The notes beneath the pieces were generated by a model that had not been told where the DNA came from, ran no database searches, and saw nothing but the letters and a program-made list of their open reading frames with translations. This document shows positions 36,728 to 43,473 of a stretch of 64,000 bases of DNA, piece after piece. This DNA comes from Ensifer adhaerens. GTDB lineage: Bacteria; Pseudomonadota; Alphaproteobacteria; Rhizobiales; Rhizobiaceae. Positions within the stretch are counted from its first letter, which is position 1. The number at the start of each line of letters is the position of its first letter. Location of the stretch: assembly GCF_028993555.1 (NCBI RefSeq), contig NZ_CP118612.1:496001-560000 (forward strand), given 5' to 3'. The position numbers and the translations under genes were made by a program.

Positions 36728-37228
36728 TTAGCGCATTTGGCCTGCCCGAGCCGTCTCGTGCCCTTTGAGCTGAACGAGCTCTCGAGCGTTCTGAGCGGGG
36801 AGGGGGCGAGCAATCAGGTATCCCTGAGCCTCATCGAAACCTTCGGCCTTGATCAGGTTGAGTTGGTTCTGGTGCTCTACACCTTCCACCGTTGTGATGA
36901 TCCCCAGGGAGCTGCCAATTGCTGCGACAGCTCTGACAATGGCCAGGCTCTCCTTGCTGCCTGGAAGATCTGCAACGAAGCTGCGATCGACTTTGATTTT
37001 GTCAAAGGGAAACGTTCTCAGATACCCGAGAGAAGAATAGCCTGTGCCGAAGTCGTCGATTGCAATTTTCACGCCGAGTTGTCGGATCGCGTTGAGTATC
37101 TGGAGATTGCCCTCACATTCATCAAGCATTACCGCACGTGCGCTTCCTTTCAGGGCGAACGGCCAAAAGCCCCCGGGCACGGAATGTCCGCCGAGCGTCT
37201 TCGAAGGGGAAAGGACGCACTCGTCCAC
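36728..37228 (-). pseudogene. EAL-domain (c-di-GMP phosphodiesterase) C-terminal remnant
   Basis: About 130 residues match the second half of an EAL domain: IAIDDFGTGYSSLGYLRTFP, FDKIKVDRSFVADLP and IITTVEGVEHQNQLNLIKAE, ending AQGYLIARPLPA. The EAL signature itself and the substrate-binding first half are missing, as is any GGDEF or sensor part. The N-terminal ~30 residues of the frame are unrelated. A protein of this kind could not hydrolyse c-di-GMP, so it is called a remnant. Confidence 0.7.
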
Positions 37229-37317: not shown

Positions 37318-38967
37318 ATGAGCGATCAATCAGTGCGCATATTGCTTGTTGAGGATAACCCGCTCCACGCAACGTTAATCCAGCGGCTCCTCGACGCCGA
37401 AATGCAGTCACGCTGTAGCGTGATCGCAGTGGACCGCTTGAGCGATGGGCTCGGACATCTTGAGCGGGGCGCCATAGATCTGGTGCTGCTCGATCTAATC
37501 CTGCCGGACAGTCAGGAACTGGAAACGCTATTCAGAGTTCGCTCGACTGCCCCGAATGTTCCGGTGGTGATCCTGACCGGTCTGGACGATGTGAAGTTGG
37601 CGGCGCGCGCCGTCGAGGCCGGTGCCAGCGACTTTCTGTTAAAAACGCGGCTCACGAGCATCGCACTTGATCGGGCCATCCGATACACGCTGTCACGAGC
37701 ACGCGCCCACGGTGGCGAATGGAACTCGCCGATGTTCCGCCTTGCCCAGCAGCAGTTTCTGAAGGCCGCCCAGATCATGAATCTGGACGACAACATCCGC
37801 CAACGGCTGCTATTCCCGCAGCGCACCCAGGTCGTGTCGTTCCCGTTCTTCCGCGACGACCGCGCGCAAGTCGAGACCGTCTTCGGCTACCGGGTGCAGC
37901 ATGTCCTGACCATGGGGCCAACCAAGGGTGGAATTCGTTATCACGAAGATGTCGATCTTGGTGATGTGGCGGCGCTGGCGAGCTTGATGACCTGGAAATG
38001 TGCCCTGATGCGATTGCCTTTTGGCGGTGCTAAAGGCGGTGTGCGCGTCGATCCCACCGTGCTTTCAAAAAGCGAGTTGCAACGGCTGACCCGACGCTAT
38101 ACCGCCGAGATCGTCGACATCATCGGGCCTGACAAGGACATTCCGGCACCCGACATGGGGACCGATGAGCAGGTCATGGCCTGGATCATGGACACGTACA
38201 GCCAGCAGGTGGGACATGCCGTGCCCGCGGTGGTGACCGGTAAGCCTGTCGTGCTCGGCGGCTCCCTTGGACGCAAGGAAGCGACCGGGCGTGGGCTGGT
38301 CTATGTCGTGGAGGCCGCGGCCGAAATGATCGGACTGGACCTGGCCAAATCGACTGCCGTGATCCAGGGGTTCGGCAATGTCGGTAGCTTCGCGGCGCGT
38401 TTTCTGGCCGAGGCGGGCGTCAAGATCATCGCTGTCAGCGACGTATCAACCGGGCTTTACAATCCCGGCGGCCTTTCCGTTGACGCGCTCGTGGAATACG
38501 TGGCCACCCACCGGGTGCTGACGGGATTTCCCGACGCTGAGCCAATCTCCAACGCAGAACTTCTGGAATTGGAATGCGATGTCCTGGTCCTGGCTGCGCT
38601 GCAAAATCAGGTAACCGCGGAAAACGCTGAACGGATTAAGTGTCGGCTGCTGGCTGAGGGCGCCAACGGCCCCACCACGTTGGAAGCCGATGAGATCCTC
38701 AACGAACGTGGCGTGCACGTCATCCCCGACATCCTCGGCAATGCCGGCGGAGTAACGGTATCCTACTTCGAGTGGGTGCAGGGCCTGCAGAACCTGACCT
38801 GGACGCTCGATGAAATCAATCACCGGCTCAGGGCGATACTATTGGATGCGTTCGCTCGCACGCGGCGACGCGCGGAGGGTGACAGATTGGACCTTCGCAC
38901 CGCTGCCTTGATCGAGGGCATCGCTCGCGTCACCGAGGCCAAGTTGCTGCGCGGCCTGTTCCCATAA
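37318..38967 (+). CDS. response-regulator receiver domain fused to glutamate dehydrogenase
   Basis: A 549-residue fusion. Residues ~5-125 are a REC domain with acidic pocket E12/D13, phosphoacceptor D59 (LVLLD59LILPDS), T87 (VILT87G) and K109. Residues ~135-549 are a full hexamer-type Glu dehydrogenase: GPTKGGIRYHEDV, MTWK227CALMRLPFGGAK239GG (substrate and catalytic Lys), PAPD279MGTDEQVMAWIMD, the Rossmann GFGNVGSFAARF and NAGGVTVSYFEWVQ. It would interconvert glutamate and 2-oxoglutarate plus ammonia, with activity or oligomerisation set by phosphorylation. The ATG follows GGGGGG and a TATACT -10-like element (~37283). The kinase gene begins 39 bp downstream. No frameshift lies at the junction. 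Confidence 0.92.
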   Translation: MSDQSVRILLVEDNPLHATLIQRLLDAEMQSRCSVIAVDRLSDGLGHLERGAIDLVLLDLILPDSQELETLFRVRSTAPNVPVVILTGLDDVKLAARAVEAGASDFLLKTRLTSIALDRAIRYTLSRARAHGGEWNSPMFRLAQQQFLKAAQIMNLDDNIRQRLLFPQRTQVVSFPFFRDDRAQVETVFGYRVQHVLTMGPTKGGIRYHEDVDLGDVAALASLMTWKCALMRLPFGGAKGGVRVDPTVLSKSELQRLTRRYTAEIVDIIGPDKDIPAPDMGTDEQVMAWIMDTYSQQVGHAVPAVVTGKPVVLGGSLGRKEATGRGLVYVVEAAAEMIGLDLAKSTAVIQGFGNVGSFAARFLAEAGVKIIAVSDVSTGLYNPGGLSVDALVEYVATHRVLTGFPDAEPISNAELLELECDVLVLAALQNQVTAENAERIKCRLLAEGANGPTTLEADEILNERGVHVIPDILGNAGGVTVSYFEWVQGLQNLTWTLDEINHRLRAILLDAFARTRRRAEGDRLDLRTAALIEGIARVTEAKLLRGLFP

Positions 38968-39006
38968 GCGTAAATAGAATCCCGTCCCGACGAGGAGGGA
39001 TTGAAG

Positions 39007-41973
39007 ATGACCAGAACCAAAGATGCCGATTCCAACGAGCATTCGAGCACCGCCCGCGCGCTCGCAGCGCAACTCGAGTGCGCTCGTGTGGCGCAGGCCG
39101 AGGCCGAAGCAGCGCGCGACAGGCTCCTGGACGGAATCGAGTCAGCTTTGGAAGGGTTCGTTCTCTATGACGCCGATGACCGCATGGTCGCCTTCAATTC
39201 TCGCTTTCAAGAATTGTTCGCCCCGAGCGCTAGGATCGGAATGAGTTTTGAGGACCTGATCCACGCCTCCGCAGAGAACGGATTGATACCATTTGGCGAA
39301 GTCCCTCCGGAGGCGTGGATTGCACAGCGCTTGAAGCGCCACCGCAACCCTGGCCAGCCGTTCACGCTGAGGCTCAATAGCGGGACGTGGATTCGAATTA
39401 GCGAGGGCCGGACCCGCGATGGCGGCCTCGTCGGCGCTTACACCGACGTTACCGAACAGGAGGAACAGCGCGCGCATCTGGAGGAACAGATTGCCGCGAC
39501 TGAAGCGGCCGTCACCCGCGCAAGAGCCGCTCGCAGACAGCTTTTGGACGCAATAGAATCAGCGCTGGAAGGCTTTGCGCTCTACGACGCCGACGATCGG
39601 CTTGTAGTCTACAACACGAGATACCGGGACATGTTCACCGGCGGTGCGGCACTTCCTAAGGAGCCTATCCTAGACAAGCCAGGTCCGCAGTTTGAAGAGC
39701 GGGCCCGCGCTTTTGCGGAGAGTGGGGATGTAGATCGAGAAGGCGTCACTGTCGAGGAATGGGTTGCGCGGCGAATGGCGCGTCATAGCAACCCCAGCGG
39801 GCCCTTCAAGCTGGTGCTCCGGGATGGAGTCACCCTTCGCGTCAGTGAACACAAGACCGGCGACGGCGGAACGGTTTGTGTCTATTCCGATATCACCGAG
39901 CTTGAAGAACACCGGGACCGCTTGGAAGAGCTCGTGGCCAAGCGTACTGCCAAGTTGCAGCAGCGCACGGAACAACTGCACAAGTCACGAGAGGACCTTG
40001 AGCGCGCCCGTGACGTGGCCGAGCAGGCTAGCAAAGCCAAGAGCGAGTTCCTTGCGAACATGAGCCATGAGATACGCACGCCGATGAATGGCGTGATCGG
40101 CATGGCGGAACTGCTCGCAGGAACCGAGCTTTCCGAACAGCAGCGCAGATATGTTTCGATCATCCTCCATTCCGCCGACACGCTCATGGATCTCATCAAC
40201 GACATCCTCGACTTCTCCAAGATCGAGGCCGGTCGACTTGAGCTCGAGGCAATCCCATTCGTGCTGCGTGATACACTGGGCGACACGCTGCAGACCCTTG
40301 CCAAACGCGCGGCCGACAAAGATCTTGAACTTGCCTGCCACATTTCTCCCGAGGTGCCGGACCACCTGGTTGGAGACCCGACACGCCTGCGGCAGATCAT
40401 CGTCAATCTGGTCGGCAATGCCATCAAGTTCACGGAGATCGGGGAGGTGGTGGTAGATGTGACACTGGATCAGCAGAATAGTACCGCCGTGCGCCTTCTG
40501 TTCCAGGTGCGCGATACGGGTATCGGTATCAAGAAGGCGCAACAGGAGCGGATTTTCGAGGCTTTCGCTCAAGCCGATACCTCGACGACGCGGCAATATG
40601 GCGGGACCGGGCTAGGCCTGGCGATCGCTGCGCAACTGGCCGAAAGGATGGGCGGGCGGATGGAGCTCGATAGCTCGCCGGGCTCTGGCAGCGTGTTTAC
40701 TTTCGCCGCCGATTTCGGACTTGCGCCGGAACCAGAAGTCACACGCCCCGCGCGCGAGGCGCAGTTGCGTGGCCGGCGCGTACTGGTGGTCGACGACAAC
40801 GCCACCAATCGACAGATTTTGGAGGAAATTGTCGTCAACTGGGGCATGACCCCGATAGTATCGCCGGACGGTGTGGCGGCGCTCCATGCACTCGATCAAG
40901 CTGGTGCATTGCCGGACCTCGCGATTCTTGACGTGATGATGCCCGGGATAAGCGGGTTCGACCTTGCCGCGTGCCTCCGACAACGAGCAGGCCTAAAGGA
41001 GATGCGGATCGTGATGATGTCGTCCGCCGGTCGGGCGAGTGACGAGGCACTGCTGCGCAAGCTCAGTATTTCGAGGCTCCTGGTGAAGCCGGTCAAACAA
41101 TCCGAACTCCTGAACGCTATTACCAACGCGCTAGGCGTCTCGATGAGGGAAGACGAGGGTGATAGAGCCGCAGGGCCGGTGCTATCGAAAGCAGTGGTCG
41201 GACTAAGTGTCCTGCTTGCCGAGGATGGTGCGGTCAACCGGCAGGTCGCGGTAGATCTTCTCACGAAGCGTGGCCACCGGGTCGAAGCCGTCGGGAACGG
41301 CCGGGAGGCAGTCGAAGCCGTCCAACATGGTCACTACGATCTGGTGTTGATGGACGTCCACATGCCTATACTGGACGGGCTTGCCGCGACTGCAGAAATC
41401 CGCGCGCTCCCCCGATCCGCGTGCGCCCGCGTGCCGATCATCGCGCTGACCGCGAGTGCTTCGCCGGCCGATCGCGAACGCTGTCTGGCGGCAGGCATGG
41501 ATGGTTTTGTGACGAAGCCGTTCCGCGCCACCGAACTGTTTGGCGTCGTCGAACAGTACGAGCCGGACATGGTATCGCTCGCCGCTGGACCGGCAACTGC
41601 AAGCCCAGTGGAAGCCCTGGCTGCAGACGAGCCTCCGCTGGACTGGAATGGCGCGCTGCGCAATCTTGATGGCGACGAGGCGCTTTTGCGCGAGTTAGTG
41701 GCGATGTTCCTTGCCGAATACCCGCAACTGATGGCCACAATCGACGCCGCGCATGCCAGCGGCGATACCAAGGAGTTGCGGCGCGCGGCCCATACCTTGA
41801 AAGGCTCAGCGGAGGTTATCGGCGCCGGCCAAGTAGGAATTGCGGCACAGCGGCTCGCGGATTTGGGCCGCGAGGGAGAGCTTGGACCCTTTCCGGAAGC
41901 TAGGCAGGCGTTGTCGGCCGCATTGGGTCGCCTGCAGCCAGTCCTTCAGCGAGCGAAATCGGACACCAAGTAG
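39007..41973 (+). CDS. soluble hybrid histidine kinase (PAS-PAS-HisKA-HATPase-REC-REC-HPt)
   Basis: A 988-residue multidomain kinase without transmembrane segments. Two similar PAS_7-type sensor domains (~40-150, ~180-298, each starting ESALEGF.LYDADDR) are followed by a coiled coil (~300-345), the H-box with H354 (NMSH354[11 protein letters not shown]) and HATPase boxes [16 protein letters not shown] and GTGLGL. REC1 has D642 ([10 protein letters not shown]), REC2 D783 (LVLMDVHMP), and a C-terminal HPt has H929 ([11 protein letters not shown]). All phosphorelay residues are present. It is 39 bp after the REC-glutamate dehydrogenase gene, its obvious partner. ATG 39007 after GAGGAGGGA is preferred to TTG 39001. 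Confidence 0.93.
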
Positions 41974-42402: not shown

Positions 42403-43473
42403 CTACTCTTGTCTATCGAAACGGTAGACGGCTGCATTATCCTGGAACTCGCGCAGGCCCTTGTAGGAGGGATGCCGGAGCTTCTCGTCTGCCGTCCACG
42501 CTCGGTATTCGATCTCTGCTATGAGCGTCGGCTGGAGCCAAACGAGATTGCGTTTGTCTGAATAGGTGACTGGCGGCTGCTTCCCTCTCCAGGGCAGCTT
42601 GTCCATTTTCTTGCGCAGCTGCATCGCATCGCGCTCCTTAAAACCAGTGCCGACACTGCCAACACAGACCAGGTCCTCGTTCCTGTAGGCGGCAAGCAGC
42701 AGGGAGCCGAAACCAGCCCGAGATGCGGTGGACGGTTCATAGCCGACCACGATGAACGCGTGACTCTGGATGCACTTCAGCTTGATCCAGTCGCCGGTAC
42801 GCCCGGATCGATAGGGGCTGCCCTGACGCTTTCCGACGATGCCTTCCAGGCCCAGGCTGCAGGCGTGAGCAAGCAATTGCGCCGGGTCGGCGTCCACCTC
42901 TTCGGAAAGCAGGATTGCGCCGTCGTGACCACGAAGCGCCTCCTCAAGCAGATGCCGCCGGGCACGATACTCGACCTGGCGCATGTCATGGCCGTCGAGG
43001 TAAAGAAGATCGAACGCATAGAAGAGGGCAGGCGAGGCCCGGTTTCCGATCTTTTGTCCGGATGCTCCGAGCGATTTCTGCAGCAGGTTGAAGTCCGGTT
43101 TGCCTTGCTCATCGAGAACGACAGCTTCGCCATCCAGGATCATCGACGCCGGTCCCAAGGCCCGAGCAGCCTCGGCAATGGCCGGGAACCTGCTTGTCCA
43201 ATCGAAGCCGCCTCTGGTGAGAACTCTCACGCGACCGCCTTCGATGTGGACGTGCAGACGGTATCCGTCCCACTTTATCTCCCATCCCCAATCGCCGGTG
43301 ACTGGCGGGCTCTCGGTCAACAGGGCAAGCGCGGGCTCAACGCGATCGGGCATCGGATCGAATGGCAGTTTTGGCTGCGCAGGATCACGGCTGCTGATGC
43401 GGCCGCTCTGCATCGCAATCGTTTCGTCACGCAGCAGCGGCTTTGATCGGGGTGGGCGAGGGGGCTTCGTCAT
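42403..43473 (-). CDS. stand-alone ATP-dependent DNA ligase (LigD ligase-domain type)
   Basis: A 356-residue ligase with the nucleotidyltransferase core and OB fold but neither polymerase nor phosphoesterase domain. Motif I is EIKWDGYR with the adenylated Lys67; later motifs are LDGEAVVLD, FYAFDLLYLDG, LEGIVGKRQGSPY and WIKLKC, and the OB part includes VGSVGTGF. Such LigD-like proteins act in Ku-dependent end joining or other repair; no ku gene is nearby. The start at 43473 lacks a strong ribosome-binding site (ATG 43413 is an alternative). It is divergent from the SNase gene. Confidence 0.88.
   Translation of the reverse strand: MTKPPRPPRSKPLLRDETIAMQSGRISSRDPAQPKLPFDPMPDRVEPALALLTESPPVTGDWGWEIKWDGYRLHVHIEGGRVRVLTRGGFDWTSRFPAIAEAARALGPASMILDGEAVVLDEQGKPDFNLLQKSLGASGQKIGNRASPALFYAFDLLYLDGHDMRQVEYRARRHLLEEALRGHDGAILLSEEVDADPAQLLAHACSLGLEGIVGKRQGSPYRSGRTGDWIKLKCIQSHAFIVVGYEPSTASRAGFGSLLLAAYRNEDLVCVGSVGTGFKERDAMQLRKKMDKLPWRGKQPPVTYSDKRNLVWLQPTLIAEIEYRAWTADEKLRHPSYKGLREFQDNAAVYRFDRQE

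Follow-up and report, generated by a model that had tools for sequence, protein, structure and literature searches.

A receiver domain fused to glutamate dehydrogenase recurs beside a hybrid histidine kinase and may form a two-gene phosphorelay with a metabolic enzyme as output

Introduction

Response regulators are mainly viewed as switches of transcription or of second-messenger systems. Within the 64,000-nucleotide stretch of Ensifer adhaerens DNA that was analysed as a whole (herein the window), one gene joins a receiver (REC) domain to a glutamate dehydrogenase (GDH), and the question arises whether phosphorylation might here act directly on an enzyme of central nitrogen metabolism, and which kinase would then serve it. 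The initial annotation of this locus knew of no characterised example. In the open-licence literature we indeed found none, but the kind of protein is already known: P2CS (2009) includes the GDH EC 1.4.1.3, rated “Probable”, among the enzymes that two-component proteins may contain (PMC2716373), and proteins that join a REC to a metabolic enzyme are recognised as a class, with presumed environmental control (PMC5847659). As far as the accessible part of the P2CS paper goes, its entry is a single table row, which specifies neither a gene or organism nor a kinase partner, a distribution or a function, and which reports no residue check. Section vii of PMC5847659 does not name GDH, and the word “dehydrogenase” is absent from the accessible main text of that paper; “glutamate dehydrogenase” was likewise not found in the accessible text of PMC1183210. 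The archaeal REC-enzyme fusions treated in the parts of PMC5847659 consulted have a narrow phyletic spread, whereas the REC-GDH fusion spans several bacterial phyla and comes with a recurring kinase. For this conserved kinase pair, its spread, its degenerate branches and its biochemistry, no description was found in the open-licence literature searched, the coverage of which is incomplete.

Results

The fusion gene and its two halves

The fusion is encoded on the forward strand at 37318..38967 by one open reading frame (ORF call and Pfam) that begins with ATG, comprises 549 codons and a TAA stop codon and contains no internal stops, and the single in-frame gene of the initial annotation is thus correct in coordinates, strand and frame. 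The receiver domain (residues 8-110; 37339..37647, + strand; Pfam PF00072 Response_reg, 2.4e-18) has the acidic pocket E12/D13, the phospho-acceptor D59, the switch residue T87 and K109, as had been claimed, and judged by these residues it is a response-regulator receiver. A linker with helices at residues 114-133, 138-153 and 158-165 in the predicted structure follows (37657..37812, +), and leads into the dimerisation/substrate domain of the GDH (37816..38202, +; PF02812, ELFV_dehydrog_N at residues 167-295, 5.5e-51), which contains K203, K227, K239 and D279, and then into the nucleotide-binding domain (38257..38955, +; PF00208, ELFV_dehydrog at residues 314-546, 8.9e-76) with a GFGNVG motif from residue 351 and with S482. 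All three Pfam domains score far over their curated cut-offs. K203 and S482 are positions that we take to bind glutamate, and K227 and K239 are, per GDH structures, presumably the carboxylate/catalytic lysines. Both ELFV domains are full length and all five residues (K203, S482, K227, K239 and D279) are in place, so that the complete GDH of the initial annotation stands, and its sequence places it with the hexameric ~50 kDa GDHs of the ELFV family.

Among solved sequences, the GDH half is closest to the Thermotoga maritima enzyme (460 bits over residues 139-549), and the closest fold is 1b26 (53% identity). The stand-alone GDHs of T. maritima (1b26) and Thermus (GdhB, 3aog) share about 50% identity with the GDH half, their sequence matches covering fusion residues 139-549 and 160-549, respectively; they have no REC domain, and the sampled fused GDHs form a separate clade. 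Membership in the NCBIfam GDH equivalogs was rejected (475 of 620 bits for GdhB_Halo, 469 of 750 for GdhA_Arch), and by these scores the fusion GDH is related to, but outside, both subfamilies. The monomer, which is predicted with confidence (mean pLDDT 88.5, pTM 0.79), consists of the REC fold, the helices 114-133 and 138-153, and the GDH, in this order; as a monomer, it does not make visible how the REC domain would act on a hexamer.

Might such an architecture be a chance fusion, a sequencing fault or an annotation artefact? Two S. fredii database entries (P0073 and P0095) do give only a 411-aa GDH without REC. Against this stand eight plasmid records with a full-length copy at 90.7-93.1% identity, one of S. 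chiapasense and seven of S. fredii, all seven of which encode the whole 549 residues, as well as the near-constant length of the family and the grouping of the sampled fusions in one clade. A stop or frameshift between the two domains had been named as one outcome that would overturn the annotation, but the reading frame is uninterrupted, and the full-length fusion recurs in further genomes and plasmid records, with about 75-93% identity in the nearest of them. Because these records encode the full-length protein, a local fault or chance event was rejected, and we consider any artefact practically negligible as an explanation. On the S. fredii NXT3 plasmid pSfreNXT3a, which is typed as conjugative, the DNA encodes all 549 residues (L180, 8001-9650) and the PLSDB annotation agrees; the annotation there splits the partner kinase into two CDS that overlap, one for a PAS-domain protein and one for a kinase (L180, 9796-12643), and this kinase copy is possibly disrupted.

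Distribution and conservation

The genome of the window has 7.8 Mb, with the window on its contig C3, and the named best matches place it in the Sinorhizobium/Ensifer group. In this genome only the fusion matches the GDH half at E ≤0.001, and 35 other matches fall on the REC region; contig C1 encodes a further, large GDH of PF05088 type. The fusion was not found in the other 15 genomes searched from the genus of the window, and it occurs in 3 of 394 genomes of the family, 83 other genomes matching in the GDH half only; at phylum level, 398 genomes gave two with the fusion, one of them that of the window. This patchy presence, often on replicons classed as plasmids, suggests a horizontal spread of the fusion.

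Beyond these relatives, in a search among 5.8 billion proteins, fusions of 532-556 aa account for 118 of the 120 listed best matches (window included). Since the best 120 of 8000 and the best 120 of 3280 matches, plus loci, were used and only part of the database candidates was scored, the best-scoring matches dominate the residue counts and remote fusion members are under-sampled. In the family to which a Litchfieldella genome belongs, 16 of 275 sampled genomes have the fusion, and in two of these the GDH is degenerate. The phylum that includes a “Gemmatimonadetes” MAG has it in 9 of 64, with a degenerate GDH in one, next to three matches that are stand-alone GDHs. Sampling around a Planctomycetota MAG, again at phylum level, gave 6 of 294, of which one is cut off at the end of its contig, and another 12 matches to stand-alone GDHs. 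The best 80 of 142 named loci were examined, and 63 of them carry a fusion and 17 do not; they include loci of Alpha- and Gammaproteobacteria, Gemmatimonadota, Latescibacterota, Zixibacteriota, Planctomycetota and Myxococcota.

E12, D13, D59, K109, K227, K239 and D279 are invariant across the 118 listed fusions (window included), and position 87 is T in 104, S in 13 and A in one of them. In a wider set of 219 rows (204 distinct), D59 and K109 are found in all rows and E12 in 217, and on the GDH side K239 is kept in 218 and K203, K227 and D279 in 215 each. A tree of the GDH part with 68 rows contains one branch (99/98) that splits 31 fusions from 37 stand-alone enzymes, and as a single branch divides the two groups, the sequences fit one fusion event in the sampled set.

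The partner kinase and its pairing with the fusion

Only 39 bases past the stop codon of the fusion, a gene for a hybrid histidine kinase begins (39007..41973, +; the mechanical ORF start is TTG 39001), preceded by a probable ribosome-binding site GAGGAGG (38992..38998, +) 8 nt before the ATG at 39007. The kinase consists of two PAS_7 domains, HisKA, HATPase_c, two REC domains and an Hpt domain (Pfam), with H356 in the H-box, D644 and D785 in the REC domains and H931 in the Hpt (numbered from 39001), and it has no clear membrane span (maximal 19-residue hydropathy mean 1.52). The kinase matches itself with 2152 bits, and the second-best match in the same genome has 209 bits. The closest NCBIfam models are kinases of the BarA/TorS type, an identity that was rejected as the scores are below cut-offs (520 of 890 and 490 of 677 bits); the window kinase differs from these by its two RECs, its PAS_7 input and an enzyme as pair partner. 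Around this gene pair, a 166-aa ORF at 36728-37228 (- strand) aligns with the EAL domain over no more than the final 100 of its 236 positions and may be the remnant of a c-di-GMP phosphodiesterase gene, and downstream of the kinase gene an NHEJ-type ATP-dependent DNA ligase is encoded at 42403-43473 (-).

A homologue of the window kinase adjoins the fusion in 50 of 57 loci. This set is made up of the window, L146 and 55 from among the 63 loci with a fusion. In 43 cases the kinase lies downstream on the same strand, mostly less than 60 bases from the fusion, in four downstream on the other strand, and in three upstream; the loci belong to Alpha- and Gammaproteobacteria, Gemmatimonadota, Latescibacterota, Myxococcota and others. 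Eight fusion loci were left out of this count, five of which have a kinase match next to the fusion (L066, L072, L074, L084 and L094), and three of which show no kinase, with a fusion that reaches the contig end (L095, L097 and L099). By clustering, seven of the 57 loci have no homologue, including L083, with a different hybrid kinase without Hpt upstream, and L077, where the contig continues beyond the fusion for only about 560 bases. Judged by example coordinates of the 30 most widespread neighbour clusters, no other gene is comparably conserved near the fusion: the other widely shared clusters lie on top of the fusion or the kinase, in a different frame or on the opposite strand, and the most widespread cluster with an example outside of both is present in six loci. 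None of these listed clusters is that of the fumarase gene, which lies upstream in the window.

In the 40 kinases that were scanned (39 of the 50 and that of L083), HisKA, HATPase and REC are always found and Hpt in 37, and the input domains vary (PAS_7, CHASE, GAF, DUF4154, V4R and TorS-sensor). A constant output end combined with a changing sensor end is what would be expected if different signals feed the same enzyme.

Fusions without a kinase nearby

Five of the 57 fusion loci (L087, L091, L098, L105 and L146) have no homologous kinase neighbour in flanks of up to 8 kb, where “no kinase nearby” refers to homologues of the window kinase, an unrelated or distant kinase being possible; further loci with flanks of about 1.5 kb were not counted for kinase presence, as these flanks are too short. 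The neighbours tested by Pfam at L087, L091, L098 and L105 (10 genes) were unrelated, and Pfam was also run on seven neighbours of L146. Four of these five fusions retain E12, D13, D59 and K109, among them the fusion L142 of locus L146, which has a degenerate GDH; L105 has lost E12, D13 and T87, with its GDH residues intact. L105 and the five loci as such would agree with a REC domain that is a passive assembly or targeting module, which adjusts oligomerisation or recruits the GDH to the kinase and for which phosphorylation is irrelevant. However, fusions that have the kinase next to them retain E12, D13, D59 and K109, and the REC domains of L087, L091, L098 and L105 diverge faster, as would be expected if phosphorylation is the maintained function, so that a passive REC domain appears improbable. 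The mean ratio of REC to GDH identity is 0.50 for these four loci vs 0.72 for 27 others (31 loci, close proteobacterial relatives left out; about 0.70 by hand without the outlier L094 at 1.31), and the p-value of this contrast does not count as independent evidence, because the four kinase-less fusions group together on trees. On the basis of these sequences, the data fit a REC domain and a kinase that form one functional unit, a pattern that L142, which keeps its REC domain with no kinase nearby, does not follow.

A sister system without the enzyme

Eight of the 17 non-fused loci (L100-L104 and L107-L109) encode a solo REC of 123-127 aa that is 47-54% identical to the REC domain of the fusion. 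In seven of the eight, a kinase of the same type begins 2 nt downstream, with 48-51% identity to the window kinase over the matched part; in the eighth (L101) the contig ends. The kinase of L109 has the full REC-REC-Hpt tail, that of L103 is matched in two overlapping ORFs, and the match at L107 is cut by the contig end. These loci thus represent a sister system without an attached output enzyme. In a Phycisphaeraceae MAG, a related REC and a related kinase are joined in one ORF (L116, 7785-10382). Probably, the GDH was grafted onto the C-terminus of a solo REC that was already paired with this kinase type; REC and kinase first and GDH later is the simplest history, its direction being inferred from unrooted comparisons. 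A REC/kinase pair that is older than the fusion would favour the GDH as output.

The linker

If the REC domain acts on the GDH, its switch would have to pass through the connecting helices. A motif around EW..MFRLAQQQFLKAA is kept in the linker of the fusions, as contrasted with stand-alone GDHs. The mean entropy of residues 139-175 relative to the rest is 0.79 in the fusions (34 sequences, mean identity 0.72; L095, L097, L099 and the pseudoenzymes left out). Three stand-alone sets gave 1.60 (30 sequences, mean identity 0.61), 1.07 (19 sequences, mean identity 0.80) and 1.33 (6 sequences, mean identity 0.80), and a fourth, whose three sequences are too few to rely on, gave 0.81; in stand-alone GDHs the corresponding segment thus mostly varies more than the remainder. 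Within the fusions this region is averagely conserved, 40% of the equal-length windows being more conserved. As the compared sets are unmatched in overall divergence, these ratios lend modest support to a linker that may transmit the REC switch to the GDH.

Lineages with a degenerate dehydrogenase

In three lineages, the GDH has lost active-site residues and the REC domain is intact, and in two of these the kinase is adjacent. The halomonad proteins P0121, L067 and L068 have K203L, K227Q, D279G and S482A and keep all named REC residues; L067 and L068 have the kinase next to them, and their genomes each hold a separate, distant GDH with 33% identity. L094, from a Myxococcales MAG, has K203L, K227Q, K239Q and a gap at D279 and is shorter, with the kinase adjacent. 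L142 has K203L and K239M with an intact REC domain, and a homologous kinase was not found on its 11-kb contig (L146). The tree of REC plus linker requires three separate losses and places L094 beside L081, which has kept its active site (100/100). The GDH-only tree, which groups L094 with the halomonad pseudoenzymes (99/89), argues against three separate losses, but this grouping is probably due to long-branch attraction, given the very long L094 branch on the GDH tree and the position of L094 by L081 on the other tree.

The dN/dS of the GDH half between L067 and L068 is 0.14, as compared to 0.055-0.16 in five pairs with intact active sites, and the fold of P0121 is still predicted confidently (mean pLDDT 85.8). 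Such purifying selection indicates that this GDH half is maintained and has some role without that chemistry. Given the active-site losses with an intact REC domain, catalysis is not always the maintained trait, and it may not be the only output of the fusion. The initial annotation, in which the enzyme was the direct output of the REC domain, is borne out with respect to a complete REC and a complete GDH in one frame, to which the conserved adjacent kinase, not mentioned there, is added, but as the whole story everywhere it does not hold.

Discussion

Intact REC and GDH parts, a conserved pairing with a hybrid kinase and a single clade of sampled fusions characterise this family. With a probability of about two in three, we consider the gene pair to be a two-gene phosphorelay that has the enzyme as its terminal response regulator, in which transfer of a phosphate from the Hpt domain to D59 would change the GDH activity. 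A signal would be read by the PAS domains of the kinase and lead to phosphorylation of H356, from where the phosphate would pass to an Asp of the kinase REC domains, to H931 of the Hpt and finally to D59 of the fusion. The switch face of the REC domain, together with the long helix towards the N-terminal helices of the GDH, would then shift the presumably hexameric enzyme between a low- and a high-activity state, and the glutamate/2-oxoglutarate flux would be set without a transcription step. With regard to the sign of this effect, we favour that phosphorylation would activate the GDH or relieve an inhibition.

The strongest rival to this phosphorelay output is a GDH half that senses metabolites. 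In such a trigger enzyme, the GDH ligands (glutamate, 2-oxoglutarate, NAD(P)H) would control whether the REC domain takes, keeps or returns its phosphate, and the GDH half would be a phosphorelay input or a regulatory platform and not, or not only, a catalytic output. The three degenerate lineages, the purifying selection on the GDH half of L067 and L068 and the retained fold of P0121 speak for it, and there is a precedent in Bacillus, where GDHs inhibit the regulator GltC, as described in the consulted part of PMC6794564. On the other side, the retention of K203, K227 and D279 in nearly all fusions goes beyond the needs of ligand sensing alone, lysines for glutamate binding are among the losses of the pseudoenzymes, and the related solo-REC systems lack a GDH. 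Such a sensing or platform role of the GDH half is conceivable, with a chance well below that of the phosphorelay output. Both directions could also be combined, in that the REC phosphate sets the GDH activity and the GDH ligands feed back, with at least three lineages in which a pseudoenzyme half serves as output or sensing element with a GDH fold; we put forward this two-way phosphorelay as a tentative extension.

How does the phosphorelay with GDH as its output relate to other links between signalling and glutamate metabolism? GarA is an FHA-type protein. In the mycobacterial GarA/PknG system, a phosphorylation signal shifts metabolism to glutamate catabolism, involving enzymes that include GDH (PMC5448819, in the part consulted); it uses a Ser/Thr kinase and a separate protein that acts in trans, whereas in REC-GDH the receiver is fused to the enzyme. 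Two further candidates were set aside, each judged from the accessible part of its source: the ammonia-sensing GrtK/GrtR (PMC12918730) involves an ordinary DNA-binding regulator and is unrelated, and the gdhB-hp-pleD gene order of Wolbachia and kin (PMC4426382) contains no fusion. While the kind of fusion was thus already on record through the P2CS listing and the REC-enzyme class, its conserved kinase pair is undescribed in the open-licence literature searched.

That the same kinase and REC-GDH pair recurs in distant phyla suggests, as far as sequences can tell, that a sensor directly tunes a core enzyme of nitrogen metabolism. The pair makes the phosphorelay control of a central metabolic reaction testable with two genes, and culturable hosts that carry it are available in Halomonas, Zobellella and Sinorhizobium. 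The natural variants, i.e. the degenerate GDHs, the diverging REC domains without a kinase and the solo REC with its kinase, are controls that would separate catalysis from signalling.
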